This document shows, one piece after another, positions 1 through 21,292 of a stretch of 21,292 bases of DNA. The notes under the pieces are model-generated. The model was given only the letters and a program-made list of their open reading frames with translations, was not told the DNA's origin and made no database searches. The number at the start of each line of letters is the position of its first letter. Position 1 is the stretch's first letter. Location of the stretch: the IMG/VR virus record IMGVR_UViG_3300012006_000030, positions 1 through 21,292 of that record. One strand, 5' to 3'. The DNA is from a virus. The translations under genes were made by a program, and so were the position numbers.

Positions 1-1473
1 GCCGGGTCACCAGCCGCCCTCATCAATGCTTACCTTAAGCCAGATACGAAGACTCCACTATTCGATTACAGCAAAATCCGCCCAGCAGGTGAACCCATCA
101 GAACCTTTGGTGGAACAGCAGCAGGAGCAGAACCTTTAAGTCGTTTGCATCAGTACATTGATAAGATGTTTAAAGGTCGTGCTGGCCAGAAGTTAACTCG
201 TATAGATATTGCCGATATTGGAAACATGATTGGTGTCTGTGTAGTCTCTGGCAATGTCCGCCGCTCTGCAGAGTTGCTTATCGGTCGTGTAGATGATGAA
301 GATTTCCTTAACCTTAAGAACGCTGAAAAGTTTCCAGAGAGAAACTCCTATGACCCAGCAAATCCTGGTTGGGCTTGGATGTCTAACAACTCTGTGGCCG
401 TTAATGTAGGAGACAACCTAGACAACATCATTGATGGCATAGCCCGTAACGGTGAGCCAGGAGTTATCTGGATGGATATCTCTCGTCAGTATGGCCGCCT
501 TGCAGACCCTATCAACAATAAGGACTGGCGCATCGCTGGCTACAACCCATGTGCTGAACAGTCACTAGAGTCTTATGAGTGCTGCACATTAGTTGAGACT
601 TACTTAAACCGCCATGACAATTTAGAAGACTTCAAGCGCACCCTCAAGTTTGCCTATCTCTATGCCAAGACTGTCACTCTTTTGCCAACACACTGGGAAG
701 AGACTAACGCCATCATGCAACGTAATCGTCGCATTGGTACATCTGTATCAGGTGTGGCTAACTTTGCAGACAACAAGGGCTTACCTGTTCTTCGTAAATG
801 GATGGATGAAGGTTACGCAACAATCGGTGCTTACGATAAGACTTACTCTGAATGGCTTGGTGTTCGTGAATCAATCAAGATGACAACAGTGAAGCCATCA
901 GGAACTGTAAGTATCTTGGCTGGTGAATCTCCTGGAGTTCATTGGACTGTTGGTGGTAAGTACTTCTACCGTGCAATCCGTTTTGCTAACTCTGACCCAA
1001 TGCTTCCTCTGTTCAAGATGGCTAACTACCGAGTGGAGCCTGCATCGGAATCGCCCGAAACTACAAGTGTTGTTTTTTTCCCAGTAAAATCCGATGCTAA
1101 AAGAAGTGAGAAGGATGTAAGTATCTACGAGAAGATGGCACTTGCTGCTACTGCTCAAAGATACTGGTCAGATAACTCTGTATCAGTAACTATCTCATTT
1201 GACCCAGAGACAGAGTCTTCGGCTATTGGTACGGCTTTGCATATGTATGACGGACAACTCAAGACCGTGTCCTTCTTACCTTCTGGTAATGCTATCTATC
1301 CACAGATGCCGTACACACAAATCACTGAGGAAGAGTATGAGCGAGAGGGAACAATGAAACTGTTTCCTATTGATTTGGCTGGTGTCTATGCTGGTATGGC
1401 TAGTGATGCTATTGGTGAGGCTTACTGCACCACTGATGCTTGCGAAGTTAGGCTAATCAAAGATAACCAATAG
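1..1473 (+). CDS. nrdJ: Ribonucleoside-triphosphate reductase, adenosylcobalamin-dependent (class II), 3' part
   Basis: Reduces ribonucleotides to deoxyribonucleotides using coenzyme B12, supplying dNTPs for phage DNA synthesis in the cytoplasm. The frame is open from base 1, so the start lies upstream of the window; the internal ATG at 145 is not the start. What remains is the C-terminal two thirds of a Lactobacillus leichmannii-type monomeric enzyme. The active-site loop NPCAEQ has its Cys codon at 550-552 with Glu two residues on, matching the thiyl-radical Cys and catalytic Glu of the family, and a Cys follows 11 residues later (in ECC), as the redox-pair Cys does. The motif VKPSGTVSILAGESPG is also typical. 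The C-terminal CTTDAC fits the CxxxxC swinging-arm pair that shuttles reducing equivalents. Transcription is convergent with the minus-strand genes that follow. Very sure of the family; the symbol follows the class. Confidence 0.95.
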   Translation, partial: AGSPAALINAYLKPDTKTPLFDYSKIRPAGEPIRTFGGTAAGAEPLSRLHQYIDKMFKGRAGQKLTRIDIADIGNMIGVCVVSGNVRRSAELLIGRVDDEDFLNLKNAEKFPERNSYDPANPGWAWMSNNSVAVNVGDNLDNIIDGIARNGEPGVIWMDISRQYGRLADPINNKDWRIAGYNPCAEQSLESYECCTLVETYLNRHDNLEDFKRTLKFAYLYAKTVTLLPTHWEETNAIMQRNRRIGTSVSGVANFADNKGLPVLRKWMDEGYATIGAYDKTYSEWLGVRESIKMTTVKPSGTVSILAGESPGVHWTVGGKYFYRAIRFANSDPMLPLFKMANYRVEPASESPETTSVVFFPVKSDAKRSEKDVSIYEKMALAATAQRYWSDNSVSVTISFDPETESSAIGTALHMYDGQLKTVSFLPSGNAIYPQMPYTQITEEEYEREGTMKLFPIDLAGVYAGMASDAIGEAYCTTDACEVRLIKDNQ

Positions 1474-2335: not shown

Positions 2336-2947
2336 TTATGCTGTGGCTTTCGCTTTTGCTATGGCTTTGGCTTTTACTGCTTTGGCTTCTGCTTTTGCTA
2401 TGCGTATTGCTTGCTTCTCAGGGAACTTAGCCAACCAACCCCTAACTACTGGGTTCTTGACTCCCTTCCATGACCGCCAGTTCGTGCCCTTCTTGCTCAT
2501 TAAATAAGCAACTTGGGCATTTACCACAGGGTTCAGCAGTTCGGCATTGTAATCCAAACTGTATTTATCCCTTCTATCTACACCCAACTTGCCAAGCATA
2601 TTAATCTGGAACAACCCAAATGAGTTATCACCAGTTTTGCTATTACCGTTGTGTGAGAGGGGATTACCACGTGATTCTTTCATTATGATAGCCCACGCAT
2701 GTCGCAGGGCTTGTCCTTTGAACCCAACCGCACTTAGCATCTCAACTAACTCTGTCTGAGTCAGATGGTCTGCGTTCTTGTACTTGGCTAAGGTTCGCTC
2801 TTGGTATTGCTTTTGAAAGACTAGGGCTTCGGCTTTCGTAGGTGTGAAGGCTGGTGGAAGACCCACCACGCCTTGTATGACTACGAACATCGCTGTGAAC
2901 AGCGACCCAAAGACAATCTTTCCTCTTTTTGTTAGTTTCATCATCAC
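2336..2947 (-). CDS. Lysozyme-like transglycosylase (SLT-type) with N-terminal signal or anchor
   Basis: Predicted peptidoglycan-cleaving enzyme acting outside the membrane. Residues about 10-30 form a hydrophobic signal or anchor after a basic start (MKLTKRGK). The catalytic fold runs from about residue 62 to 160. Glu91 in IIMKESRGNP is the likely acid catalyst, and SFGLFQINMLG is the typical substrate-cleft motif of the lysozyme-like superfamily. The last 25 residues are an Ala/Lys repeat (KAEAKAVKAKAIAKAKA), unusual for an enzyme and perhaps cell-wall or DNA adhesive. The GTG at 2947 overlaps the integrase stop (GTGA), but GGAG in the integrase 3' end is better spaced for the ATGs at 2944 or 2941. 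It could be a phage endolysin or a host-surface resuscitation-type protein carried as cargo; its position next to int rather than a holin leaves this open. Confidence 0.8.
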   Translation of the reverse strand: MMMKLTKRGKIVFGSLFTAMFVVIQGVVGLPPAFTPTKAEALVFQKQYQERTLAKYKNADHLTQTELVEMLSAVGFKGQALRHAWAIIMKESRGNPLSHNGNSKTGDNSFGLFQINMLGKLGVDRRDKYSLDYNAELLNPVVNAQVAYLMSKKGTNWRSWKGVKNPVVRGWLAKFPEKQAIRIAKAEAKAVKAKAIAKAKATA

Positions 2948-4200
2948 TCCAAAAAGTCATTAACACTTTCCGATGCCTTTGACTGGTTGTGACGAAGGCG
3001 ATGTAAGTATCGCTCTGTCGTCTTTATCGATTGATGCCCCAGACGTTCCTTGACCTCATGCACATCTACCCCACTTTTTAGAAGGTGGGTAGCGTTAGCA
3101 TGCCGAAGGTCATGGGTTCTAGGATTCCAATCGATTGCTGACTTGGCTATTGCCTTGTTCCATATCGTTCTCCATACATCTCGTGGCAGGTGACTCGATT
3201 GTTTTATCACGTCACGCTTCTGGTATGGCTTTGCTTTCAGCCTGTGCTTTCGCACCGCGCCTCTGCATTCACCGCACCGACAACCCCCATGTGTATAGGA
3301 GTAGAGCGTGCCATGTTGGAACGTTTTTCCGTCTTTTGCGAATGGTCGCTCAGACTGTGCACCACGAGAAGTTTCTATTTTACTTGTCTCTAGCACTAAA
3401 GACCTAGAGAAGAGTAGTTCATCTTTTGGTATGGCTTTGGCTATGACATAGCCTTGAATCTCCTGTATGAGCGTTTTACTGAGCATTAGGCTTCGCTTAT
3501 GCCCCGACTTGGTTGCATCGACTACAAGGAACCTACTGGTATGGCTTGCCCCTAAGTCACTCACTCGCCTCTGTATCAGTACCTCACCACTCTTGAAGTT
3601 GATGTCCTTGACTCTGAGTTCTGTGGCTTCTCCGAATCTGCACCCACTTGCTACTAGGAATCGCGCAAATAATTGGGTGTTTTTATTCGGTAAATGCTCA
3701 ATAATAGATAGAAAGTCTGCTGGTTCTAATACGTGTTGAATATCAGCATGGCGCATCTTAATCTTGACCCCATGAGTCGGGTTGCTGGCAATCTCACCTG
3801 TCTGCACCAGATTCTTGAAGGCTGACCCCAGAGAGGCTTTGACTTGCGCCAGAGTTGCAGGTTGAACGCCTTGTAGTTGTAGCCCTTGAAGTAACTCGAT
3901 GACAATTCGTTTGGAGATGGAAGTTACTTTCATGTGACCGATTACTGGCAGGGCATAGGTTTTCAGGATTGAGGAATAGCCCTTGCAAGTGATTGGCATG
4001 AGGTCTGCGACTGGTAGCCATGAGTCGATATAGGTCGATAGGGTCATAGAGGCTCTGGAAGCCCCGTCAGAGCCAGAACGCTCTGCTTGCATGGCGTGAT
4101 ACTCAGCCTCAGTCTTCGTGCCCCACGTGCCAGCAGAGAGGCGTTTACCAGCCTTTCGGTAATAGCCTGTCCAGCGTTCACCGCGCTTAACTACGTACAT
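2944..4200 (-). CDS. int: Tyrosine recombinase (phage integrase) with inserted zinc-type cassette
   Basis: Site-specific recombinase, 418 aa, that would integrate the element by strand exchange between attP and attB. The N-terminal arm-binding and SAM-like core-binding regions span about 1-150. The catalytic domain carries Arg188 (SGCRFGEATEL), Lys231 (ATKSGHKR), His363 and Arg366 (THDLRH), His389 (LGHQ) and the nucleophile Tyr398 (TTERYLH). All catalytic residues are present, so it should be active. Between the Lys and the HxxR box lies an insertion (about 292-330) with GGCRCGEC, Cys307/309/312 and nearby His297 and His304. This resembles a small Cys-rich module seen in other actinophage proteins, including the HNH protein at 15697-16749. 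The ATG at 4200 has GAGAGG seven bases upstream and its own promoter. Confidence 0.95.
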   Translation of the reverse strand: MYVVKRGERWTGYYRKAGKRLSAGTWGTKTEAEYHAMQAERSGSDGASRASMTLSTYIDSWLPVADLMPITCKGYSSILKTYALPVIGHMKVTSISKRIVIELLQGLQLQGVQPATLAQVKASLGSAFKNLVQTGEIASNPTHGVKIKMRHADIQHVLEPADFLSIIEHLPNKNTQLFARFLVASGCRFGEATELRVKDINFKSGEVLIQRRVSDLGASHTSRFLVVDATKSGHKRSLMLSKTLIQEIQGYVIAKAIPKDELLFSRSLVLETSKIETSRGAQSERPFAKDGKTFQHGTLYSYTHGGCRCGECRGAVRKHRLKAKPYQKRDVIKQSSHLPRDVWRTIWNKAIAKSAIDWNPRTHDLRHANATHLLKSGVDVHEVKERLGHQSIKTTERYLHRLRHNQSKASESVNDFLE

Positions 4201-4219
4201 GAGAAGCCCTCTCTACTCA

Positions 4220-4243
4220 TCAGTAACGTTACTGGTCAGTAAC
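4220..4243. promoter_or_regulatory. Operator-like palindrome plus third half-site upstream of int
   Basis: CAGTAACGTTACTG (4221-4234) is a perfect 14-base palindrome. A third half-site CAGTAAC follows at 4237-4243, 16 bases from the first in the same orientation. The sites cover the predicted -10 and spacer of the int promoter, so bound protein would block transcription. They could instead be integrase or excisionase arm sites. Confidence 0.6.
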
Positions 4244-4254
4244 ATTGATGTCAA
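4226..4254 (-). promoter_or_regulatory. Predicted promoter of the integrase gene
   Basis: On the minus strand a perfect -35 TTGACA (4249-4254) is followed after 17 bases by TAACGT (4226-4231), which fits the TAnnnT pattern of actinobacterial -10 boxes. It lies about 25-50 bases upstream of the int ATG at 4200 and directly downstream of a terminator, so int would be transcribed independently of the cluster behind it. Prediction from consensus only. Confidence 0.6.
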
Positions 4255-4259
4255 ATAAA

Positions 4260-4288
4260 AGCCCCTAGCCAAATTAAGGCTAGGGGCT
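4260..4288 (-). terminator. Rho-independent terminator of the leftward cluster
   Basis: Eleven-base-pair stem AGCCCCTAGCC (4260-4270) with GGCTAGGGGCT (4278-4288) and a seven-base loop. On the minus strand it is followed by TTTTATTT. It closes transcription of the cluster that ends with the excisionase-like gene and insulates the integrase promoter that starts within the same T-tract. Confidence 0.85.
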
Positions 4289-4330
4289 GTCATAGAGACT
4301 ATGGGGCTTAGGGATTCATCTACTTATAGG

Positions 4331-4555
4331 TTAAGTAACTCTGCGCCCGTCTGCGGGCTCTACAGGGGTTAGTTCGGTGCTTATATCGGTGCGACTATTT
4401 CGCCACGATTCAATCGTTTCGCTCTTCCAGACTGGCGTTCGCCCTATGTACTTGTCGGGCTCTGGAAGGGTGGTTCGCTTTCGATACTTGTACAGAGTCT
4501 CGACTTTGAGTCCTGTGAGATTGGCGATGTCGGTATTTGTTAGCCATTCGCTCAT
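4331..4555 (-). CDS. Excisionase-like helix-turn-helix protein (MerR/AlpA type), 74 aa
   Basis: Small DNA-binding protein likely acting as recombination directionality factor or local regulator. Residues about 6-30 (TDIANLTGLKVETLYKYRKR) form a winged-helix HTH of the excisionase/HTH_17 class, which starts with a short helix, reads a promoter or att site, and usually has the wing residues that follow (PDKYIGRTPVW). The length is typical for Xis. It is the last gene of the leftward cluster, adjacent to int but behind a terminator, so excision and integration functions would be expressed separately. The ATG overlaps the stop of the DenV-like gene (ATGA). An alternative is a small transcription regulator of int. 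Confidence 0.75.
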   Translation of the reverse strand: MSEWLTNTDIANLTGLKVETLYKYRKRTTLPEPDKYIGRTPVWKSETIESWRNSRTDISTELTPVEPADGRRVT

Positions 4556-5037
4556 AGCGATGCACCAGTTTCTTGTTTACTTTCATTTGGTTTCTTTCCC
4601 ACTTTCCAAACTTGTAATGCACCAACGTTTTTTTCATACCAAAGATATGGCAGATTACTTTCAACATTGAAAGTGTAGTAACTATTATCTTTGCGATTTA
4701 AGTTACTTTGATGCGATGCATGAAACGAATCACTACCTAACCAGATTGGTAATCCAGTATCAGGTAATTCAGAATGCACCGCGATGAATCTATCTAACAT
4801 TGAATCTTTATAACCACGTGCAATCCATTCTTTACAGATTGCAATTCCGTAATCACATAAGGCACGTTCATGACCACGCCACATTTTAGATGCAGGGTGA
4901 TTAACCCAACCCTTAGTCTGTCCACGCAACGCTTGCAGGATTTGCCACGCCTCTACTCGCTGTTTACCTAACCTACGGTAATCAAGAGCCTTAGCAGACT
5001 CGACAAAGTCTGCATACGGCAAGAAAGTATTAACCAT
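4552..5037 (-). CDS. Pyrimidine-dimer-glycosylase-like protein (MSMEG_6728 type)
   Basis: Likely DNA repair-related protein, 161 aa. The start MVNTFLPYADFVESAKALD with RLGKQRVEAWQILQAL, the middle HPASKMWRGHE and the later SFHASHQSNLNRKD match, as I recall them, the actinobacterial MSMEG_6728 family. That family is grouped with T4 endonuclease V (Pyr_excise), which cuts at UV-induced thymine dimers. T4 endonuclease V uses an N-terminal Thr after Met removal; here Thr4 is the closest equivalent, so catalysis cannot be assumed. UV repair would suit a phage of sunlit surface water, which is inference. Start and stop overlap the neighbouring genes (TAATG from whiB, ATGA to xis). Confidence 0.65.
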   Translation of the reverse strand: MVNTFLPYADFVESAKALDYRRLGKQRVEAWQILQALRGQTKGWVNHPASKMWRGHERALCDYGIAICKEWIARGYKDSMLDRFIAVHSELPDTGLPIWLGSDSFHASHQSNLNRKDNSYYTFNVESNLPYLWYEKNVGALQVWKVGKKPNESKQETGASL

Positions 5038-5318
5038 TAGTACTCACCAATAACAGATACATAACTTTTATATTTATTTCTCTGACCCTTTCTCTTTACG
5101 GATTTGCGTTCATCTTCGGTTAATCCACCAAAGACTCCGTAGTTAATTGAATGAGTGAATGCGAAAGATAGACACGCACTCTTAGTTACTACATCGCATT
5201 TACCACAAATAGATTTCGCAAGATGAATCTTTGCTGTATCCGTTGGGTCTGGGAAGAATGTTTCTGGGTCAACGCCCTTTTCCTGACAGGGCGCGTTAAC
5301 AATCTCATTCTTCACCAT
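5037..5318 (-). CDS. WhiB-like iron-sulfur transcription regulator
   Basis: WhiB-family protein, 93 aa, expected to bind a [4Fe-4S] cluster and the host sigma factor region 4 to redirect transcription. Numbered from the ATG at 5318, the four cluster ligands are Cys11, Cys38, Cys41 and Cys49 (CxxC then C after seven residues), followed by the family turn GVFGGLTEDER and a basic tail (KSVKRKGQRNKYK) for DNA contact. A longer reading from a TTG at 5354 exists, but the ATG at 5318 has AAGAAGG nine bases upstream and fits WhiB lengths. Phage WhiB proteins can interfere with host regulators of the same family. It overlaps the upstream gene by 14 bases and the downstream one by TAATG. Confidence 0.92.
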   Translation of the reverse strand: MVKNEIVNAPCQEKGVDPETFFPDPTDTAKIHLAKSICGKCDVVTKSACLSFAFTHSINYGVFGGLTEDERKSVKRKGQRNKYKSYVSVIGEY

Positions 5319-5619
5319 TGAGTTCACCCTTCTTATGTTGAATAAAGAAGTCAATCATCTCTGTTAACTCCTCTGGTTCTAACTCTGCATAGCGAATGAG
5401 AATCTCAATCACATTTAACATTCCCCAGATAATAACCTCTGGTTCTAGATTCAATTCTGTCATTACAGAGTTGAGTTGTTGATTAGCCAGATGCACCATA
5501 ATCTCTTCTGGCAGGTGGTCTTCTCGTCTTGTCTCTGTCTGTACACCACGAGTTATCTTAAGAAACTCGCTGGCAAACTCTAGAGATTTAATAAGTTCCC
5601 TTTGTTCATTTTGATTCAT
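5305..5619 (-). CDS. Hypothetical acidic helical protein, 104 aa
   Basis: Unknown. The chain appears mostly alpha-helical and acidic, with Glu-rich stretches (ELEPEELTEMIDFF) and no cysteine. It starts at the ATG at 5619, overlapping the stop of the small HTH gene, and its end overlaps the start of whiB, so it is probably co-translated with the regulator. A small partner or antirepressor-like protein is possible, but nothing in the sequence shows it. Confidence 0.7.
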   Translation of the reverse strand: MNQNEQRELIKSLEFASEFLKITRGVQTETRREDHLPEEIMVHLANQQLNSVMTELNLEPEVIIWGMLNVIEILIRYAELEPEELTEMIDFFIQHKKGELNGEE

Positions 5620-7757: not shown

Positions 7758-8468
7758 TTACTTATCAACCCAGAGTTGGGATAGTGGAAGTGTCTTCCAC
7801 CTGATGTCTGTGTGGTTACTGGGAGTCACATAACCGATAATAAATCGAGAGCCAGTCGTATCAACAATTACACCTTTGCGTAAACGACCATGTGCCTGAA
7901 TGTAAACCTCTTCATTTACAACGGCGTTGTAAGGATTAGTTGAGTTCTCGTAATGGATTCGGTCGTTAACAATAGAGATTAATCGTTCACGTTGCTCTAC
8001 AACCTTTGCACGTACATCTAGTTTCTTTTTTGCAAGAGCAAGTGTTTTAATTGCAGAGTTAGTTGCACAGATGCCAGCAATTTCTGCACCTGCATAAGAC
8101 CAATCTAACTCGGTCTTGTTGTCGTAATCAGTACCAATCTCCCATGCGTATGCACGAAACTGTTGAGTAGATTCAGATAAACCGTAACTACCAATATCGG
8201 AATCAGAAGCAATCTCATGACTGTAATCAAAGGGAGTTCCGTCATGCTTAAAGATAGTTCGGTGTGAGTAGCACCAACCAACAATAATGATTTGGAATCC
8301 TTTGTAACTTTCTTCTTGATACGTTCTATCAACAAGAGTTAGTTCAACGACATGAGGTAATTGTTTACGAGTTCCGTCATAACGAGAATGAGTGTTACTA
8401 CCTACCTTCTCGTAACCATTGTTTTTTTTGTCATAACAGTTTTTTAATCTATCTAGATAGAAACTCAT
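7758..8468 (-). CDS. Hypothetical protein, 236 aa
   Basis: Unrecognised soluble protein. A strand-rich N-terminal part (VELTLVD, GFQIIIVGWCYSHR) is followed by a long helix rich in Lys/Arg/Glu at about 140-170 (LALAKKKLDVRAKVVEQRERL) and a C-terminal strand region resembling a small barrel (VYIQAHGRLRKGVIVDTTGSR). The start overlaps the stop of the upstream gene as TAATG. The end region resembles SH3-like binding folds by eye only. It sits between the VWA/205-aa genes and the HNH gene. Confidence 0.7.
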   Translation of the reverse strand: MSFYLDRLKNCYDKKNNGYEKVGSNTHSRYDGTRKQLPHVVELTLVDRTYQEESYKGFQIIIVGWCYSHRTIFKHDGTPFDYSHEIASDSDIGSYGLSESTQQFRAYAWEIGTDYDNKTELDWSYAGAEIAGICATNSAIKTLALAKKKLDVRAKVVEQRERLISIVNDRIHYENSTNPYNAVVNEEVYIQAHGRLRKGVIVDTTGSRFIIGYVTPSNHTDIRWKTLPLSQLWVDK

Positions 8469-9085
8469 TACGCCACCATGTCTCTCGCTTCAAGGACTTT
8501 CTCAATTAGTAATTGCAGAGTTCGAATATCGAATGTCACCTCTGGTACTGGAATGTAGTTACCGTTTGAATCACGCCGAGAGTTAATGTCACTCTTAACG
8601 TTGCTCACACGTTCACCAATAATTGATTTCAATGACACCATGACTGATTCAAGTGTGCGTTCGGCGTACGCCTGTGCATCAACACGAGCCCTCTCAGCCT
8701 CTTCACGTTCTGCACGAGCCTTTGCCTCACGTAACTTAGACTCTGCCTCTTCCGCATTCCAGCGAACCTCTAGAGGCGCGTACTCAGCAACGATGTCTTG
8801 GGCACGTGCAAGCCAGTAAGTAACTTGACCGTTTCCATTTGACCAGTCCAATGACTTGACCATGTAACCGACAGAGCGTGAACCCTTTGGTGCTGGTTGA
8901 AAGTTTGGATTATTTGGTGAATCGAATCTGAATACTTTGTACTCATACTTTTCATCAGAGACTAACTCTGCCTTTGCAACGTATCTGCGTTCGACTCTAC
9001 TCGCATCTTTTTTATCGGCTGATGAATAATCCCATGAAGGGATAACTGCGTACTTAACGCCTACTTTTAATTCGGTTGATTTCAT
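8468..9085 (-). CDS. Hypothetical protein with coiled coil, 205 aa
   Basis: Unknown. The N-terminal 100 residues are strand-rich (VKYAVIPSWDY, YKVFRFDSPNN, GQVTYWLARAQDI). Residues about 109-145 form a strongly charged coiled coil (EEAESKLREAKARAEREEAE). The C-terminal part may dimerise. ATG at 9085 is well supported by AAGGAG at eight bases. Tandem hairpins separate it from the VWA gene, so expression may be uncoupled from the VWA-MoxR pair, although it may still be part of the same process. Confidence 0.7.
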   Translation of the reverse strand: MKSTELKVGVKYAVIPSWDYSSADKKDASRVERRYVAKAELVSDEKYEYKVFRFDSPNNPNFQPAPKGSRSVGYMVKSLDWSNGNGQVTYWLARAQDIVAEYAPLEVRWNAEEAESKLREAKARAEREEAERARVDAQAYAERTLESVMVSLKSIIGERVSNVKSDINSRRDSNGNYIPVPEVTFDIRTLQLLIEKVLEARDMVA

Positions 9086-9173: not shown

Positions 9174-11114
9174 TTAGTTGCGAACCAATCGTCTAGTAAT
9201 TGCATACTTAACGATTGTTCGTGCCATAGCGATGAGGTCGAGTGGGTTATTAATAACCGCACCAATCTCGCAACGATGTGCAGTCTCACTATCAAGTGAG
9301 ATTGTTTCGCTACCGTATGGAATATATGCGAATGCAGTTAACACACCTGCACGTGACATGCGAGAGATTGCATCATGGTTGCGTTGCGAATCACCGCCCC
9401 AATCACCGTCTGTGATTGCAAAGAAGATACGTACTGGCTTATCGCTTTCAGCAAGTAACTTAGTTGCATATTGAATTGCCTTGTCTGGTTCAGTACCGCC
9501 ACCAGCACCAGCATCACGCATGACACTCGTTGCCTTATCGCTTGCACGATAGAGAATGCGAGTATCACTATTGAATGTGATAACAGTTGTGTTGGCGTTG
9601 ATACGGTCTAGTGCGCGTTTGATTGCGTACATAGATTTGTATGCGTTGCTGGCTTTACTACCAGACATTGAACCAGATGTATCGAGTGCAATTACACATT
9701 CGATTTCAGTTGCATCTTCAATTCCCTCATTCCAAGAATCGAAAACAGTTTCAATATCTTCACCACGTAAATAACGTGATGCACTTAAGCGACCACTTGA
9801 TTCGTATGTTTCCCATGCAGGGTCATACGATGCTTTGAGTCGCTGTAACTCACGAGAGAATGAAACAGATGCCTCAACAGTTTTTGCATCAGGTGCAAGA
9901 GTGTTGAATGTTTCTAGTTCAGGTTCTTTTGAGTTGTTACTAGATAGTGAAGGAAGTCCACCAACCTGTCGAATGATGTCGTTGATTTCATCGGCGATAG
10001 TTGAAGTAGTAAGAATGTCATTAAGTGTGGTTGCAATTAAATCTGCAATCTCACTACCAATTCCACTACTTGGTTCATCACCTGATTCATCAGATGAATC
10101 ATCATCAGAATCATCTTCATCATCAATAAACTCAACATCATCAATATCAAGATTGATAGTTGGTTTTTTTAATTGCTCTGCGAGTTCTGCATCATCTTCT
10201 AAATTAGATTTAGATGCACGTTCTGAATCTCGCTTCTGTTGTTTAGGTGGTTGTGGTCGAGATGTAGCAGAGGATTCAATGCCCTCATGTGGTCGTTCAC
10301 CATGACCGAATGGGTCACTAATGACTACGTTCACGTCACCGTTGCCATTCTTAGACACCTTTACTTTGACACTAAGTGAATCACCTTCCTCAGTACCGTC
10401 AGAAGGCTCAGAGCCCTCACCACCGCCACCAGTACCGTCACCTTGTGGAAGTATCGCGTGGAATCGCGCAATAAGTTCTTTTCCTTTTTCAGTATCAGTA
10501 GGGAATACCAATAGACGATAAGAATCAACGATGTCGCAGATTTCATCGATATTGTGTTGTTCCTTGTATTCATTACGTGAACGGGCACGTAGTTCAACAG
10601 ATAAGTATCTGCGACCACGTAGTAATGGATATGAGTTCTGGAATGATTCTGGCTTATCAACAAAGTGAATCAAGATAGTTGATGTGAACCATGCAACCGT
10701 TGACGGATAGCGAGTAGTAAATAGCGTTTCAATTCTCTGGTCTTCCAGAGCGTTGTATGCCATGAAGTATTTGTTATCACGAACGTATTCAAAGATGTCA
10801 GAGCCTTCACGTGGTGTAAATAAAATATGTGAAATCTCGTGCAGGTCTAAGCCCTTGATACCAGCGATTGCACGTGCATCAGTTAGTTCACCGATGAGAC
10901 GTGAATTGAATGTCACCTCTGATGCACCAGACCATGCTGGCGCACCAAGAGATGAATGTTCGACTTTGACAGTCACCTTGCGAAAGGTGAATGCAGAATT
11001 AACACGACCGAAGAATTGAGTGAAGCGTTCGATTCGTTGACGTTTTAATTCGTCTTCCGATACCGCACTAAATCCACGAGAGTTAGTTAGTTCAGCGATG
11101 TCTTTAAGTGACAT
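9174..11114 (-). CDS. HExxH metallopeptidase-like plus VWA domain protein (MoxR partner)
   Basis: 646 aa. The N-terminal region carries HEISH (92-96) inside GLDLHEISHILFTPR and EDQRIE (124-129), the layout of the DUF2201-type putative metallopeptidase fused to VWA domains. Residues 226-350 are a disordered, Gly- then Asp/Ser-rich linker. The C-terminal VWA domain has the MIDAS site DTSGS (478-482), Thr541 in GGTEP and Asp569 in ITDGD, so metal-dependent ligand binding looks intact. CobT of cobaltochelatase shares the general layout but is not implied. The gene follows the AAA+ gene by nine bases with AAGGAG before the ATG, so the two form a MoxR/VWA chaperone-like pair that remodels or inserts metal into an unknown target. 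Rare as a phage-borne system with an intact peptidase motif. Confidence 0.88.
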   Translation of the reverse strand: MSLKDIAELTNSRGFSAVSEDELKRQRIERFTQFFGRVNSAFTFRKVTVKVEHSSLGAPAWSGASEVTFNSRLIGELTDARAIAGIKGLDLHEISHILFTPREGSDIFEYVRDNKYFMAYNALEDQRIETLFTTRYPSTVAWFTSTILIHFVDKPESFQNSYPLLRGRRYLSVELRARSRNEYKEQHNIDEICDIVDSYRLLVFPTDTEKGKELIARFHAILPQGDGTGGGGEGSEPSDGTEEGDSLSVKVKVSKNGNGDVNVVISDPFGHGERPHEGIESSATSRPQPPKQQKRDSERASKSNLEDDAELAEQLKKPTINLDIDDVEFIDDEDDSDDDSSDESGDEPSSGIGSEIADLIATTLNDILTTSTIADEINDIIRQVGGLPSLSSNNSKEPELETFNTLAPDAKTVEASVSFSRELQRLKASYDPAWETYESSGRLSASRYLRGEDIETVFDSWNEGIEDATEIECVIALDTSGSMSGSKASNAYKSMYAIKRALDRINANTTVITFNSDTRILYRASDKATSVMRDAGAGGGTEPDKAIQYATKLLAESDKPVRIFFAITDGDWGGDSQRNHDAISRMSRAGVLTAFAYIPYGSETISLDSETAHRCEIGAVINNPLDLIAMARTIVKYAITRRLVRN

Positions 11115-11123
11115 GAGTTCTCC

Positions 11124-11996
11124 TTAAGCATTTGCGTGTTCGGTAGTGATTGCATCTACATCGATGCCCAAGTCTTCCTTGATGTTGTAGGAAGCACCTT
11201 CAAGCAACATGCGTACAGCAGGTCGCTCTTCTGGTGTGAAATTGTTTACGAAGATTTCGCAAGCAAGGTCGTATGAAAGTTCCTTTGAAATCTTCTCGAA
11301 TGTTTTTAAGATACGAGATGTGATTGGAGTTTCAAAGATTGTAGATGAATCAGAACGTGATGCAGATGCACCGACTGATGATGAACGCATTCCGTATGCA
11401 AGGTCTAGAAGCGATGCGGAGTTGATGTACTTACTTTCAACGGAACGGTCGAAATCGTAATGCAGTTTGATTTCGAAACGGTCTGCCAGTTGCTCTGGAA
11501 GAGGTTGTGAACCGCGATACATTGGATTGTAATCAGCGATGATAAGTAAATCTTTGTGCGCCTTAATAACCTCACCCTTGTGTGCAAGCAAAGTGATTAC
11601 ACGAGAGAAGTCCAGAAGTGGTAACACAAAGTGCTTAGCATTCTTAGCGAGTTTATCAATCTCACCAAGATTTAAGATTCCACCGTTACGAACAAGATTA
11701 ACGATTTGTGAATCAACCCATTCCAGTTTGCCGTTCTCATCTGGAACGTAAGAGCCCTGTAATTCAGATGCACTTAATGAATCGTTCGAAGGAACGTTGT
11801 AGTAAGGAATGTTGCGAAGTGATGCGATGTACTGAGCGAAAGAAGATTTGCCAGTACCAGAGTGACCGAAGTTGAGCATGTTCATTTGATTCTTAACTGC
11901 ATAGTCTGCAATTTCAATCTCTGATACATCACAGAATGTACGTGGAATGTAGTGAGCCATTGAATCGAGCGTTGGTATGAATTGGGTGTTTGTCAT
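11124..11996 (-). CDS. MoxR-type AAA+ ATPase with altered Walker B
   Basis: 290 aa. Walker A is GHSGTGKSS (44-52). Walker B reads GGILNLGEID (105-114), where the usual Asp-Glu is Gly111-Glu112, so the Mg-coordinating Asp is missing while the catalytic Glu stays. Sensor 1 is ADYNP (Asn157), and Arg173 in LADRFE is a candidate arginine finger. MoxR-class ATPases form hexamers and act with VWA proteins as chaperones; the VWA gene follows nine bases downstream. The start at 11996 has only a weak ribosome-binding site (CGGAAC), and a 182-base structured gap precedes it. The Asp to Gly change is one base (GAT to GGT), at 11664-11666. Confidence 0.9.
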   Translation of the reverse strand: MTNTQFIPTLDSMAHYIPRTFCDVSEIEIADYAVKNQMNMLNFGHSGTGKSSFAQYIASLRNIPYYNVPSNDSLSASELQGSYVPDENGKLEWVDSQIVNLVRNGGILNLGEIDKLAKNAKHFVLPLLDFSRVITLLAHKGEVIKAHKDLLIIADYNPMYRGSQPLPEQLADRFEIKLHYDFDRSVESKYINSASLLDLAYGMRSSSVGASASRSDSSTIFETPITSRILKTFEKISKELSYDLACEIFVNNFTPEERPAVRMLLEGASYNIKEDLGIDVDAITTEHANA

Positions 11997-13629: not shown

Positions 13630-13733
13630 TATTTTGACCTCAATCCTAATTTGCAATCTTTGCAAACTAAACGATTTGGATTATCCAAGAACCAGAGTTC
13701 GTTGGTTTCATTTAAGCAATCTGTGCAAGTCAT
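13629..13733 (-). CDS. Zinc-ribbon micro-protein, 34 aa
   Basis: Tiny gene with ATG at 13733, overlapping the TAA of the gene upstream, and its own TAA overlapping the next ATG. Cys3 and Cys6 (CTDC) with Cys24 and Cys27 (CKDC) form a minimal ribbon with two aromatic residues between (LWFL). Both this and the next junction carry the same twelve bases, CATTATTTTGAC on the plus strand (13627-13638 and 13731-13742). Function unknown. Confidence 0.7.
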   Translation of the reverse strand: MTCTDCLNETNELWFLDNPNRLVCKDCKLGLRSK

Positions 13734-13900
13734 TATTTTGACACCTTATTGATACCAAGTGATTTGATGATTTCAAGAGTTACTGATGATGTTGAGTAGT
13801 AACGAGTGCCGTCATTGAGAATTAAATCAATGAGTGTTGGTGAGATGCGACCGCGAGCAACGATTTCGCCCCTGTCATTTATGTATGTGGATTCTTTCAT
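13733..13900 (-). CDS. Hypothetical protein, 55 aa, first gene of the leftward cluster
   Basis: Unknown. It starts at ATG 13900, with AAAGGA somewhat far upstream (14 bases), and ends TAA overlapping the next ATG. Predicted strand-helix-strand-helix (INDRGEIVARGR, TLIDLILND, RYYSTSSV, LEIIKSLG). It is the first gene after the gene-poor control region, so its leader may carry the promoter of the cluster. Confidence 0.65.
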   Translation of the reverse strand: MKESTYINDRGEIVARGRISPTLIDLILNDGTRYYSTSSVTLEIIKSLGINKVSK

Positions 13901-13967
13901 TTTAGTTACCGTTTCCTTTTGTAGTTACTAGTGGTAGTTGAATATGCAGATTACATATTCACCACGA

Positions 13968-14008
13968 TTTCAATCGATGCTAATTCGCTGATTAGGTGTC
14001 GATTGAAA
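13968..14008. promoter_or_regulatory. Long hairpin upstream of the leftward cluster
   Basis: Arms TTTCAATCGA (13968-13977) and TCGATTGAAA (13999-14008) pair perfectly over ten bases. After a 2/3-base internal loop, CTAAT (13980-13984) pairs with ATTAG (13991-13995), with a six-base loop. It sits 68 bases upstream of the first leftward ATG at 13900, so it can be an operator or a structured leader of that transcript. Confidence 0.6.
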
Positions 14009-14328
14009 CCGTAGAAAACATATAAGTAGATAGTTACTGATTGTGTGATTCCGATTCATTCTCTGTGCAATCGAACGGAATGGATACCGTCTGCATTCTT
14101 TGAAAGAAACAGTCCATGTGAACAGGACACAATCTCCGTAACTTAATCCCTAAGCCCTACCGCTATCCACAATAGATTTCTCTATCGTTAACTCACGCCC
14201 TTGAAATACCGCTTGAATGTAATTACTAATTACAGTCGCATCGCCGTAGCAAGAATGATTGAGTCAATTATTTATTTCGGTGTTATTGCATCGTATAGTC
14301 CGACCGCACAATGTCTGCCTTGATAACT

Positions 14329-14392
14329 AGTTACTTAGTAATTAAATCAACAACATAACCAAACAAAGTTTGTAGTTGATTTATTAGTAACT
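14329..14392. repeat. Nested inverted repeats in AT-rich DNA
   Basis: Outer arms AGTTACT (14329-14335) and AGTAACT (14386-14392), inner arms AAATCAAC (14344-14351) and GTTGATTT (14375-14382). The left outer arm overlaps the palindrome TAACTAGTTA, and the right one lies in ATTAGT-A-ACTAAT. The density of symmetric sites with the core GTTACT suggests binding sites for a dimeric phage protein, or an origin structure. Confidence 0.55.
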
Positions 14393-14711
14393 AATACCGA
14401 ATAAATAAATCGCAGTTTCTTAGTCTCTATGGATAACAATTTATAAAGTAATCATCACCTAATTGAAATCCCCTAGAGGTTCGTAATAGTTTCAATGAGT
14501 TCACCGATATTTATAAATTATTAAATTATTGTTAAAGCCTGTTGCCAGTTTTAACGATTCGCTTTTTTCACTTTGAATGATTCACCAATTTGCCCCGAAG
14601 GGATTCTGAAATCGGTGGTCACACATCGAGTGCGCTACTGGGTCAATTAAACCACACATGTCCGACTGACCATGACATACCTAGTAAGAGAGGTATAAAC
14701 GTTTAGATGCG

Positions 14712-14738
14712 TACACGCTCACACGCCTACACGCTCAC
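14712..14738. repeat. Direct repeat TACACGCTCAC, two copies
   Basis: Two exact 11-base copies at 14712-14722 and 14728-14738 with a 16-base period open a GC-rich block (about 14710-14850). The block also has repeated GTAGAGCC, GTAGCCCC and ACGTGGCG words, and its composition differs sharply from the AT-rich DNA on both sides. Confidence 0.5.
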
Positions 14739-15086
14739 GTGGCGTATAGAGCCCCCAGAAGCCCCGTAGAGCCACGTAGCCCCCATATTGAGGCAATCAC
14801 CCCAGAGTGGGCGTGAACGTGGCGCACGTAGCGATGTGCCAGAGGTGATTCTGAGGCTAATGTCCGAATTGACCGATATGAGTAAGTTTGATGACCCAAT
14901 GTGAATCCACGCAGTTAGTTGAAAGTTCAATTAGTTAGTTGAGAGAGTAAGTAGGAAGTAAGAAAGAAAAGTTAGTTAGGTGAGTGCGCCCTGCCCCTTG
15001 ATTACGTAACGAAATGAAATTGCGCGAGATGTATTTTTTCTCTGTAAAAGTTAACAAGTAATCTATTAAGAAAGAGTAATAGAAGT

Positions 15087-15179
15087 ATGGAGATGATAGA
15101 TATAAAGAGAAGATGTAATCAATGCAAGATGTATAGGGAGTATGAATGTTATTGCGATTGGAGAGAGTATGAATACTAA
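15087..15179 (+). CDS. Possible Cys-rich micro-protein, 30 aa
   Basis: ATG at 15087 begins a short frame with Cys10 and Cys13 (CNQC) and Cys21 and Cys23 (CYC), a plausible mini zinc site between charged residues. The ribosome-binding site is weak. It is one of only two frames in the 1.8 kb gene-poor region and would be co-transcribed with the next micro-ORF. Confidence 0.4.
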   Translation: MEMIDIKRRCNQCKMYREYECYCDWREYEY

Positions 15180-15297
15180 GTACCCGTTAGCGATGCGATT
15201 AGATAGTCGTAGTCGTATGAATGTCATCATGTGGTTCGGTAGGTATGAGATACACAATGATGTAAATCATAACTGTCTATCTCACATGGACACATAA
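15169..15297 (+). CDS. Possible small protein, 42 aa
   Basis: ATG at 15169 lies within the end of the 30-aa frame (11-base overlap), behind GGAGAG. The product (MNTKYPLAMRLDSRSRMNV...) has no recognised motif. It is supported only by overlap and a fair ribosome-binding site. Confidence 0.35.
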   Translation: MNTKYPLAMRLDSRSRMNVIMWFGRYEIHNDVNHNCLSHMDT

Positions 15298-15300
15298 CCA

Positions 15301-15559
15301 TGACAAGTCATCTGTATAGATAGTTACATGATGAGTGTGTACATGTAATCAATGAATGAATAACTACATGGTTAGTACCTGATTACAACGTGGCGAGATG
15401 ACCGACAGGCTGGTCGGTGTCGCACAGTCACACAGCCATGTAACGCAGTAGCCGAGAGTGTTGTCACCAGAGTTGTCACCAAGTTAGTTAACACACCTGA
15501 TTACACGCTGATGTTTACAACATCGCACCTGATTGGTAGTCAGGTGGTGAATGTAAACA
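15301..15559. promoter_or_regulatory. Cluster of palindromes and short direct repeats
   Basis: In 260 bases: TGAC-AA-GTCA (15301-15310); TTACATG/CATGTAA (15324-15330, 15342-15348); ACCGAC/GTCGGT hairpin (15401-15418); direct repeat GTTGTCACCA (15460-15469, 15472-15481); GATGTT/AACATC (15510-15524); CACCTGA/TCAGGTG hairpin (15526-15546). The last hairpin is enclosed by TGTTTACA (15512-15519) and TGTAAACA (15552-15559). CACCTGATT recurs at 15494 and 15526, and ACCTGATT again at 15378. It looks like a binding-site array or origin. Confidence 0.5.
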
Positions 15560-15696
15560 CAAGTCCAATCCAGTTGACCCCCCACCATTACCGCGCTCGC
15601 AGTTAGAGGTCTGCCAGGTGAAAGACGCAGGAATTGACTTTTTGAGGCGTAAAGTAGCCGAAGAATGAATTACCTCCCCTAGGCCACAAGATTTTG

Positions 15697-19041: not shown

Positions 19042-19500
19042 ATGGCTGCTCAAGATAACCTCTCTAATGAACTATTCTTTAAGGTTCATCGCGGCGTCAA
19101 TGTCTCGTATCCACATTACCCCGAAGAGGGTGGGTCTTCCAAGTACGTCGTTGATAGCAAAAATCTAGGTGTTCACTGGAGCGCAGATGCAGACGTGGCT
19201 AAAGGCTTTGCTAATAGCCCTAACAGTCGCAGCACCGAGCCATCGTGGAGAACAGACCACGCAAAAGTAATACATGCAGATGTTCCTATGAGTTCTGTTG
19301 AAACGAATGAGGAAACAATGAGGAACGGTGGATTTGCAAACTTTAGCCGTCAAGACCCTTATGAAGAAAAAGAAGTAATGGTTAAAAAAGGCGCCCCCAT
19401 TAAAGTTACAGGCATCACTAAGTTACGTCAATCAAAAGATAAGAGTGAAGTTAAGTCACGCAAGCGCACGTACAAGATTCCACGGGAGATGAGCGCATGA
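19042..19500 (+). CDS. ADP-ribosyltransferase-like protein of R-S-E type with shared leader, 152 aa
   Basis: Predicted to transfer ADP-ribose from NAD to a target. After the leader MAAQDNLSNELFF the fold shows the three sites of Arg-type toxins: Arg17 in VHRGV, Ser47 in GVHWSADADVAKGFA, and Glu109-x-Glu111 in YEEKEVMV followed by KGAPIKV. Order and spacing fit the ART superfamily by eye, and a full catalytic triad is present. The last residues (MSA) and the stop lie in ATGAGCGCA, which mirrors the ATGAGCGCC start of the other array genes. No ribosome-binding site is visible, but the leader homology supports this ATG. It is the first of the tandem array and probably an effector against the host. 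Confidence 0.75.
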   Translation: MAAQDNLSNELFFKVHRGVNVSYPHYPEEGGSSKYVVDSKNLGVHWSADADVAKGFANSPNSRSTEPSWRTDHAKVIHADVPMSSVETNEETMRNGGFANFSRQDPYEEKEVMVKKGAPIKVTGITKLRQSKDKSEVKSRKRTYKIPREMSA

Positions 19501-20021
19501 TGAAGCGTCCTCCTAAAGATGTAGGTAAAGCATTAGATGCTGGATATCAGCCTATGTTCATGACTGGTCCAGAGATTAAAGAAAACTTTGCACCCTTTAG
19601 GGGCGACAAACAGATTGTCAAAAAACCAGATACAGAAGACACCAGTCAGAACACTCACCGTGAAGAGACTAACTCTGAGATGTGGAATAGAAAACTTACA
19701 GAGTCAAAGAAGACTGGAGCACAACGTTTTGGTAAGGAGGCCTTTGAACGTGTAGGCAATGCTTGGCGCACCCTTAGCGGTCCTACTTTGGCTAATCGCG
19801 GAATTCGCCCAGATACATCATTAGAGTCAGTTGCTAAGACCAAGGGAATACCAGGTCACGTGTCATTACAGGCAGAGCCAGATTGGAAGACTGGCAAGAG
19901 AGAGGTACTAGGTGGCCATCACCGCATAGCGTTATCTGCTGAGCAGTTTAAGAATCACATCTTCCCTGTTAAGTATTATGACTCTATATCCGATGCCACT
20001 GGGGACAAGGGGTACATGTGA
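19497..20021 (+). CDS. ParB-like (ParB/Srx fold) protein, 174 aa
   Basis: Residues 19-30 (PMFMTGPEIKEN) and WNRKLTES (63-70) match the protein that starts at 21051. At 139-145, GGHHRIA is the nucleotide-binding signature of ParB N-terminal domains, embedded in KREVLGGHHRIALSAEQ. ParB-like domains bind CTP or nucleotides and in phages may act as nucleases or DNA clamps. The leader (MSA-x-NLS) is missing, though the upstream junction keeps ATGAGCGC. A longer insertion (about 71-115) separates the conserved halves. ATG at 19497 overlaps the previous stop; the stop overlaps a GTG. Confidence 0.75.
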   Translation: MMKRPPKDVGKALDAGYQPMFMTGPEIKENFAPFRGDKQIVKKPDTEDTSQNTHREETNSEMWNRKLTESKKTGAQRFGKEAFERVGNAWRTLSGPTLANRGIRPDTSLESVAKTKGIPGHVSLQAEPDWKTGKREVLGGHHRIALSAEQFKNHIFPVKYYDSISDATGDKGYM

Positions 20022-20371
20022 GCGCCTCAGACAACCTCTCTCAGCAACTCTTTCATGGAACAGGAGCAGTGATTCCTACAGGTGGTCTCGTTAAGACTCC
20101 TGACGATGTAACTTACGCTACAACTTCTTATGGTTACGCTAAAGCCCATGCTGAAGATAAACTACACCGACCAGCAGTTCCAACTCCCAACTGGCAAATG
20201 CCGATGTTTAATCCAATTTACGAAGTGACCCCTGTGTCTAAGGCCGAAACACGTAAGACTACAAAGGCTGAACAGAAGCACGCACCAGAACATATGTTTA
20301 GTAACGATGTTGCTATATCTGAAAAAGGTTTTAAAGTAAAACGTGTAGCGGGATGGGCGGCAATTAAATGA
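20018..20371 (+). CDS. Arr-like ADP-ribosyltransferase domain with shared leader, 117 aa
   Basis: The GTG at 20018 overlaps the previous stop (GTGA). After the leader MSASDNLSQQ the chain reads LFHGTGAVIPTGGL, then VTYATTSYGYAKAHAEDKL, then PIYEVTPV, and SEKGFKVKRVAGW at the end. This order resembles rifampin ADP-ribosyltransferase (Arr): HGT, YxTT...A..A, IYxVxP, a C-terminal strand pair ending in Trp. His13 and Tyr33 would be the NAD-site residues. True Arr modifies rifamycins; here, in a phage array, a protein or nucleic-acid target is more likely. Resistance function is not implied. Confidence 0.7.
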   Translation: MSASDNLSQQLFHGTGAVIPTGGLVKTPDDVTYATTSYGYAKAHAEDKLHRPAVPTPNWQMPMFNPIYEVTPVSKAETRKTTKAEQKHAPEHMFSNDVAISEKGFKVKRVAGWAAIK

Positions 20372-20709
20372 GCGCCTCAGATAACTTGTCGGCTGGTCAG
20401 TTTCGCACTTACTACCACGGCACTGACGCTAGTAACGTTGAGTCAATAAAAAAGAGTGGTTTACATGAAGGCACTTACCTTGCTAACCATCCAGGTACTT
20501 CAGAAATCTACGGGGACAATGTTTTTAAGGTAACTATTCCTCCTCACCATGAGTTTGCACTTAATGAGGATGAGTATTGGGAAAACAATCAAGAACAACA
20601 CGGATACAAGCCTGCAGAAGTTCCAGACTCTAAAGACCTTGTGACTATGCGTCCTAAAGAGTTAAAGTTAGAAGGACCTAAGCCTTGGCAAGAGTGGTTA
20701 AAAAAATGA
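20368..20709 (+). CDS. ART/PARP-like HGT-type protein with shared leader, 113 aa
   Basis: Starts with the leader MSASDNLSAGQF, then YYHGTDASNVESIKKSGL, GTYLANHPGTSEIYG, VFKVTIPP. HGT at 17-19, Tyr37, and the following strand are the first two elements of the His-Tyr type ADP-ribosyltransferase fold; the third (Glu) position is unclear, perhaps in the acidic stretch around 65-75. The C-terminus is Lys-rich (RPKELKLEGPKPWQEW). ATGA overlaps on both sides. A third, different ART relative in a row, but its activity is less certain than that of the 19042 protein. Confidence 0.65.
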   Translation: MSASDNLSAGQFRTYYHGTDASNVESIKKSGLHEGTYLANHPGTSEIYGDNVFKVTIPPHHEFALNEDEYWENNQEQHGYKPAEVPDSKDLVTMRPKELKLEGPKPWQEWLKK

Positions 20710-21047
20710 GCGCCCAGAATCTTTCTTATCAGCAACTGGCTATGTTTATTCCAGCACACGAAATTGCTAAGTTACCGATGATGGATGCCCACAGAGGTGA
20801 ACCAAACACGGAAGTCCTTGCTCGTAAGTTAAAGTCTGCCAAGGAAGATACATGGGAAGAGTCAAAGGGCATGTACGAGTCCATCAAGAAGATTGGTGTA
20901 CAGCAACCTGTAGATATTATCCATGACTCAAAGCGTGGACCAATGCTTGGAGAAGGTCATCACCGTATCGCATCTGCCATGGATGTTAATCCAGATATGT
21001 TGATTCCTGTTACTCACAAAGAACCTCACGAAGCACGAAGCGAGTAA
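20706..21047 (+). CDS. ParB-like protein with shared leader, 113 aa
   Basis: ATG 20706 is chosen over an upstream codon at 20685 because the leader MSAQNLSYQQ and the ATGA overlap with the previous stop start here. The core GMYESIKKIGVQQPVDIIHDSKRG with PMLGEGHHRIASAMD (residues 55-93) is a clear ParB N-terminal domain: G-x-Q-x-P, then G-x-G-H-H-R-I. It has no HTH or dimerisation domain, so a stand-alone ParB/Srx fold, not a partition protein. Related to the proteins starting at 19497 and 21051. Confidence 0.85.
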   Translation: MSAQNLSYQQLAMFIPAHEIAKLPMMDAHRGEPNTEVLARKLKSAKEDTWEESKGMYESIKKIGVQQPVDIIHDSKRGPMLGEGHHRIASAMDVNPDMLIPVTHKEPHEARSE

Positions 21048-21050
21048 TAA

Positions 21051-21292
21051 ATGAGCGCCCAAGATAATCTTTCTCTTCAGCAACATCTACAAGCAGGACA
21101 ACTACCTATGTATATGACTGGACATGAGATTAAAGAGCATTACGGTTCTTCAGAACGTGATTCAGGAAAAACCGAACAAGATGTCTGGGATAGAAAGTTA
21201 ACAGAGTCTCAAGTAGATGAGGGATATGACTCCGAGTCTAAATCTTTATATGAGAGTATTAAGAAGCACGGTGTACAAAACCCAGTAGAGAT
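21051..21292 (+). CDS. ParB-like protein with shared leader, cut by window end
   Basis: ATG at 21051, three bases after the previous stop. The first 80 residues are visible: leader MSAQDNLSLQQ, then PMYMTGHEIKEH, VWDRKLTES and SLYESIKKHGVQNPV, which aligns with 19497 in the first half and with 20706 in the second. This bridges the two and shows that all three are paralogues. The GGHHR signature should follow outside the window. Confidence 0.8.
   Translation, partial: MSAQDNLSLQQHLQAGQLPMYMTGHEIKEHYGSSERDSGKTEQDVWDRKLTESQVDEGYDSESKSLYESIKKHGVQNPVE

Follow-up and report, generated by a model that had tools for sequence, protein, structure and literature searches.

Paired MoxR-type AAA+ ATPases and VWA proteins act in bacteria as chaperones or metal inserters, and the presence of such a pair in a phage, with a metallopeptidase-type domain on the VWA partner, raises the question of what it would remodel there. 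We examined this in a stretch of 21,292 nucleotides (the window), which makes up 21.3 of the 24.7 kb of IMG/VR record IMGVR_UViG_3300012006_000030. The assignment of the pair to this kind in the initial annotation was upheld. The gene for the 290-residue MoxR-type ATPase (AAA_5; 11124..11996, minus strand), identified from its open reading frame and from Pfam, PHROG and PDB profile matches, comes first and is followed after 9 nt by that for the 646-residue metallopeptidase-VWA protein (9174..11114, minus strand), a viral CobT-like protein recognized from its open reading frame, VWA Pfam matches, relatives and similarity of fold to numerous VWA proteins of phages. An AAGGAG ribosome-binding site for the second gene (11120..11125, minus strand) lies over the stop codon of the first.

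The two genes are adjacent in every locus that holds both (78/78), mostly with a gap of 2-14 nt. Relatives with the gene order of the window occur on contigs of 76-101 kb; in one of them, L006, an 81-kb contig with identical gene order, the VWA protein is 76% identical to that of the window. The phage had been called compact, a description that does not hold, as the window is only part of a 24.7-kb fragment and its relatives come from contigs that reach ~100 kb. Between the window and L006, dN/dS is 0.12 for the VWA protein and 0.05 for the AAA+ protein, values which indicate that purifying selection is acting on both genes. Three features point to an actinobacterium as the host: a WhiB-type protein, a relationship to phages of Gordonia and Brevibacterium, and a ribonucleotide reductase (RNR) in L006 that shares 78% identity with its counterpart in the lake Actinomycetia phage DSL-LC01. 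DSL-LC01 carries a pair of its own, of another subfamily. An integrase and a likely excisionase, the latter called by eye, suggest that the phage is temperate; both are encoded at window 2944-5354 on the minus strand, together with a pyrimidine dimer glycosylase and the WhiB-like protein.

The AAA+ protein matches Pfam AAA_5 (E 1.7e-18) and PHROG 249, 'porphyrin biosynthesis' (E 2e-21). Its Walker A motif, GHSGTGKS, spans residues 44-51 (11844..11867, minus strand) and is kept in relatives. The Walker B region, ILNLGE, is found at residues 107-112 (11661..11678, minus strand), with an invariant E112 and with a glycine at the aspartate position, which varies in the family between D, N and G. 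Residues G47, K50, E112 and R173 are conserved among relatives, R173 being the putative arginine finger. A complete AAA+ partner nine bases upstream had been claimed; its position, Walker A motif, E112 and R173 bear this out, but the canonical Walker B aspartate is missing. Among solved structures, the best single-domain AAA+ matches are NorQ (5e-28) and a CbbQ-type protein (3e-27), with CobS at 1.5e-9; the higher scores of midasin in this profile search are sums over several AAA+ modules of one chain. In a tree with modest support and long branches, the protein groups with NorQ (support 83/64), apart from CobS and other phage CobS-likes (90/88). Tree placement and PDB scores thus both put it outside the CobS clade, and weakly suggest a grouping with NorQ/CbbQ instead.

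The partner begins with a metallopeptidase-type domain (residues 1-224; 10443..11114, minus strand), predicted by AlphaFold2 with a pLDDT of 91.9 and a pTM of 0.85. The model comprises a long helix, three strands (48-70), a helix at 80-99 with the HExxH motif HEISH (residues 92-96; 10827..10841, minus strand) and a helix at 117-135 with LEDQRIE (residues 123-129; 10728..10748, minus strand), which resembles a motif of a cyanophage 'peptidase'. This matches the layout of zincins, in which an antiparallel β-sheet is followed by the HExxH helix and then by a helix with acidic residues, with E124 or D125 as the candidate third metal ligand. Pfam yielded nothing significant for the N-terminal part, and a Foldseek search of the PDB with the domain alone gave no significant match (best E 2.1); ~32 of the best 50 matches, none of them significant, were zinc metallopeptidases.

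The C-terminal VWA domain (residues 470-646; 9174..9707, minus strand) ends in a conserved helix and is supported by Pfam VWA (E 3.9e-7) and by fold matches to MDN1-MIDAS (1.6e-6) and NorD (3.8e-5). Its MIDAS comprises DTSGS at residues 478-482 (D478, S480 and S482; 9669..9683), T541 (9492..9494) and D569 (9408..9410), all on the minus strand. The best 50 PDB matches of the full-length model list VWA domains only, and against viral models it recovers many phage VWA proteins in long alignments, among them those of haloarchaeal tailed viruses, of Gordonia phages and of Thermus phage P74-26. Ahead of the VWA domain, a profile alignment with CobT places residues 410-462 (9729..9887, minus strand), with W434, G441-R-L and R447, where NorD has its finger. 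Model confidence is low at 433-441 and 459-468 of this stretch and its border. In NorQD structures, the finger enters the pore, the C-terminus lies on the ring and the MIDAS faces the target (PMC13036017); by analogy, residues 410-462 may act as a finger.

The motifs that had been reported for the 646-residue protein, HEISH, EDQRIE and the MIDAS residues of DTSGS, T541 and D569, are all in place. Across 48 de-duplicated relatives, residues H92, E93, H96, D125, R127, D478, S480, S482, T541 and D569 are invariant and E124, Q126 and E129 almost so, although conservation of the N-terminal motifs is overstated in this set because some of its members were drawn with search patterns containing those motifs. 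An eight-row alignment reaching down to 23% identity shows no variation at H92, E93, H96, D125, R127, E129 or the MIDAS positions, and the Gordonia and Brevibacterium relatives, found by plain tblastn, keep the N-terminal motifs too. When residues were shuffled, HExxH arose in 1.1% of trials and DxSxS in 45%, so the MIDAS string could occur by chance alone; the VWA assignment rests instead on conservation, the Pfam matches and the predicted fold.

The family to which the pair belongs is already known from many tailed phages, with conflicting guesses at what it does, either inserting cobalt or assembling virions. Liu et al. 2021 (PMC8651126) described a cobST cluster widespread in tailed viruses, in which, as in the window, an AAA+ gene adjoins a VWA-MIDAS gene, and read the products as cobaltochelatase subunits that use host CobN. 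For group 2.2 jumbo phages, Iyer et al. 2021 (PMC7824862) reported MoxR alongside a vWA domain joined to an N-terminal metallopeptidase and proposed a part in virion assembly; as described there, the domain order resembles that of the window protein, but the phage group, the genome size and the proposed role differ. The possibility had been raised that the pair is a standard gene of its phage group with a known role. It is indeed a described standard cluster, but in the literature searched we found no experiment on the viral CobST cluster or the MoxR/vWA-metallopeptidase pair. The closest named pairs, in Gordonia phages (Chidieberevirus, GMA6, DalanDe) and Brevibacterium phage Cantare, agree with the window in genes, order and all motifs at 27-39% identity over most of their length; they differ in longer AAA+ tails, in the absence of an RNR (three records) and in lacking the 205-residue neighbour described below. 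The present analysis adds a comparison in which the cobalamin and virion-assembly readings are weighed against each other.

How close the window protein stands to bacterial CobT varies along its length. The AAA+/VWA pairing is common to both systems, and a profile alignment relates the finger and VWA region to CobT (E 4.9e-6). The N-terminal domain aligns collinearly, with LEDQRIET on VEQARVEA, but at E 0.048 and a probability of 1%, which is a hint at most. The N-terminal CobT domain PF06213 gave no match at E 0.01, nor at 0.1 for residues 1-224, and the CobT_C VWA domain PF11775 scored 23.4 bits (cut-off 21) across 46 residues, below generic VWA models. Unlike the bacterial pair, that of the window thus has no PF06213 match, retains HExxH and includes an AAA+ protein outside the CobS clade. 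Bridging sequences come from phages CRP-810 and T5S1, whose CobT-likes give full-length alignments with CobT (E 5e-36 and 3.5e-27), match PF06213 and carry HExxH (DHEAGH) at a site where bacterial CobT has none. Altogether, HExxH was found in 13 of 14 phage CobT-likes, from actinophages, cyanophages, ICP2, RHEph10, SSU5, CRP-810, T5S1 and others; seven of these were retrieved with a bacterial CobT or CobS query and hence carry no motif bias, and two (L088 and L089) were found with motif patterns. The exception is P74-26, which has the pair without HExxH. None of 23 bacterial CobT proteins, all alphaproteobacterial and so from one bacterial class, has the motif. The peptidase annotation of cyanophage cobT has been called an error (PMC8651126); two cyanophage proteins examined here nevertheless carry HExxH and EDxRhE, and a cyanophage 'peptidase' near cobS, with HExxH and EDVRIE, matches our N-terminal profile (E 9.7e-6).

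Judged from these alignments, homology between the N-terminal domains of phage CobT-likes and CobT has good support in one part of the family and is likely in the remainder. Given the contrast in HExxH between phage and bacterial proteins and the full-length alignment of the bridging phage sequences, the CobT N-terminus looks like a degenerate version of the peptidase-type domain, the motif presumably having been lost in CobT. A broader proposal, that viral 'CobT' proteins, instead of being chelatase subunits, work at the replication stage as active zinc peptidases driven by AAA+, and that bacterial CobT descends from one whose active site decayed, is tentative and, on balance, doubtful.

The cobalamin reading holds that the pair replaces CobS/CobT, uses host CobN and raises cobalamin for an AdoCbl-dependent RNR of the phage. 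Besides the published proposal and the kinship with CobT, over the finger and VWA region here and over the full length in some phage CobT-likes, it draws on the neighbourhood. A class II AdoCbl-dependent RNR, probably cut at the window start, is encoded at window 145-1473 on the plus strand, and this enzyme (TIGR02505) is present in 58 of the 64 lineage loci with enough flank. Beyond the lineage the association dissolves. Three complete Gordonia/Brevibacterium phage records, which carry the closest named pairs, lack an RNR of any class; among 12 named phages with such a pair, class II RNR is present in three (DSL-LC01, T5S1 and P74-26) and five have no RNR, with SSU5 and two cyanophages carrying an RNR that scores below the cut-off of the class II model and RHEph10 an ambiguous case. 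Conversely, a related class II RNR occurs in 1195 phage records but a close relative of the VWA protein in only 16. We therefore rejected a functional link between the pair and class II RNR, which is near-constant in this lineage and fails outside it. Phage-encoded CobN was found in none of 25 phage records, a count that leaves room for host CobN, and the missing PF06213 match, the AAA+ protein nearer NorQ/CbbQ than CobS and the HExxH kept here but absent from bacterial CobT also count against chelation. We consider this reading unlikely, and the label 'vitamin B12 genes' fits the pair poorly.

A survey of neighbouring genes, as the initial annotation had advised, placed the pair, by the annotation of the phage records, usually among replication, recombination or nucleotide genes and not among virion genes. 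A primase is close to it in ICP2, DNA polymerase III alpha is beside it in RHEph10 and a DNA polymerase in SSU5; recombination endonuclease gp46 and clamp genes are near it in P-SSM2 and S-RIM44, DNA polymerase and primase/helicase genes in T5S1, and DnaB in P74-26. In L088, as in the phages of Gordonia and Brevibacterium, it is surrounded by helicase/primase and DnaE. For CRP-810 and DSL-LC01, the annotation shows no replication gene near the pair. In ICP2, RHEph10 and SSU5 (L141, L142 and L143) the order is reversed, the CobT-like gene preceding the AAA+ gene. No structural gene lies directly beside the pair in any of the annotated phage regions examined, which speaks against virion proteins as its target, one of the options first suggested. 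A chaperone-protease that matures structural proteins, by analogy with the group 2.2 jumbo phages, for which such a role has been proposed (PMC7824862), and with archaeal ATV p618/p892, thus appears a distinctly improbable account of a pair whose neighbours are mostly early genes.

The early-region location would also suit a take-over tool owned by the phage, with which it disassembles or cuts a host protein such as a defence complex. On bacterial chromosomes close relatives are hardly found: when 84,980 species genomes were searched by pattern, a method that relies on conserved motifs and passes over more distant relatives, three loci came up. At least one, L088, is phage; filed under an uncultured Thiotrichales genome bin, it looks like a phage contig and encodes the pair along with primase, DnaB and DnaE. 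On the same counts we rejected a recent acquisition from a host. Counter-defence genes are usually patchy, however, and this one is stable in its lineage and widespread in unrelated phages; we regard a role of this kind as quite unlikely. A PADLOC search, bearing alike on counter-defence and on the defence module considered earlier, produced no family match and only a weak P-loop match, to IetA. A third component, as conserved in the MoxR-VWA ternary conflict system (PMC7159879), did not show in the locus comparison either, where no third gene is conserved across relatives of the pair. The 205-residue gene downstream (8468..9085, minus strand), proposed earlier as a third part, follows the pair in 51 loci of the lineage but, in the locus comparison, is missing in nearly all sister-lineage loci (~30% identity) and in the Gordonia/Brevibacterium loci; as a lineage-specific neighbour, it is probably not an obligate part.

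We favour, at roughly 45%, an ATP-driven MoxR/VWA protein-remodelling machine with a peptidase-type domain, encoded among early genes. This reading draws together the constant adjacency of the genes, the conserved HExxH, LEDxRIE and MIDAS, the prevalence of HExxH among phage CobT-likes, the working model of NorQD and the replication neighbours. The AAA+ protein would form a ring, on which the partner would dock by means of its VWA domain and the preceding finger-like segment; the MIDAS metal site would hold the target, and the docked partner would bring to it the N-terminal zinc-peptidase-type domain, with a presumed bound metal and presumed proteolytic activity. ATP hydrolysis would then pull the target apart or open it for a cut. 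The mechanism taken as most likely is thus NorQD-like, with the peptidase-type domain in place of the N-terminal domain of NorD; the NorD examined differs from the window protein in having no HExxH in that part, and its target differs. The weakest step is the choice of target. A protein that serves DNA replication, nucleotide metabolism or the early take-over of the host is the most likely candidate, in preference to a virion protein or one of the cobalamin pathway. Early genes are arranged in modules, and a position beside replication genes may reflect that arrangement; it is no direct evidence on the target.

Cutting may not be essential everywhere, as the P74-26 pair lacks HExxH. This phage, the bacterial CobT proteins without the motif, and the handling of metals by NorQD and CobST would also fit a non-proteolytic adaptor, in which the HExxH domain binds a structural metal or the pair inserts metal into a metalloprotein as NorQD does. 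In zincins the glutamate of HExxH serves hydrolysis rather than metal binding. Its strict conservation here counts against such an adaptor, which we consider very improbable.

These distinctions bear on annotation. CobS-like genes occur in several hundred phage records (461 matches), many labelled 'CobS' or 'porphyrin biosynthesis', and are counted as B12 auxiliary metabolic genes; if what selection keeps is the intact peptidase site of the partner, many of these labels mislead, and a common phage machine becomes open to tests in isolated phages.

Elsewhere in the window, ~2 kb (13666-15696) without a convincing open reading frame precedes an HNH-type gene and a run of plus-strand genes; an Rfam search of this interval returned no match and its repeats are weak only. 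A run of small genes at window 19042-21292 (plus strand), and at 1482-4154 of L006 (minus strand), encodes products with a common N-terminal tag like MAAxDNLSxxQF, whose remaining parts differ (by eye, ADP-ribosyltransferase-like, ParB-like with GHHRIA, and others). Open reading frames of this type number 59 in 1.41 Mb of actinophage loci, compared with 2 in the 0.47 Mb from other loci. By analogy with the internal proteins of T4, the tag may mark effectors carried in the virion for packaging or targeting.
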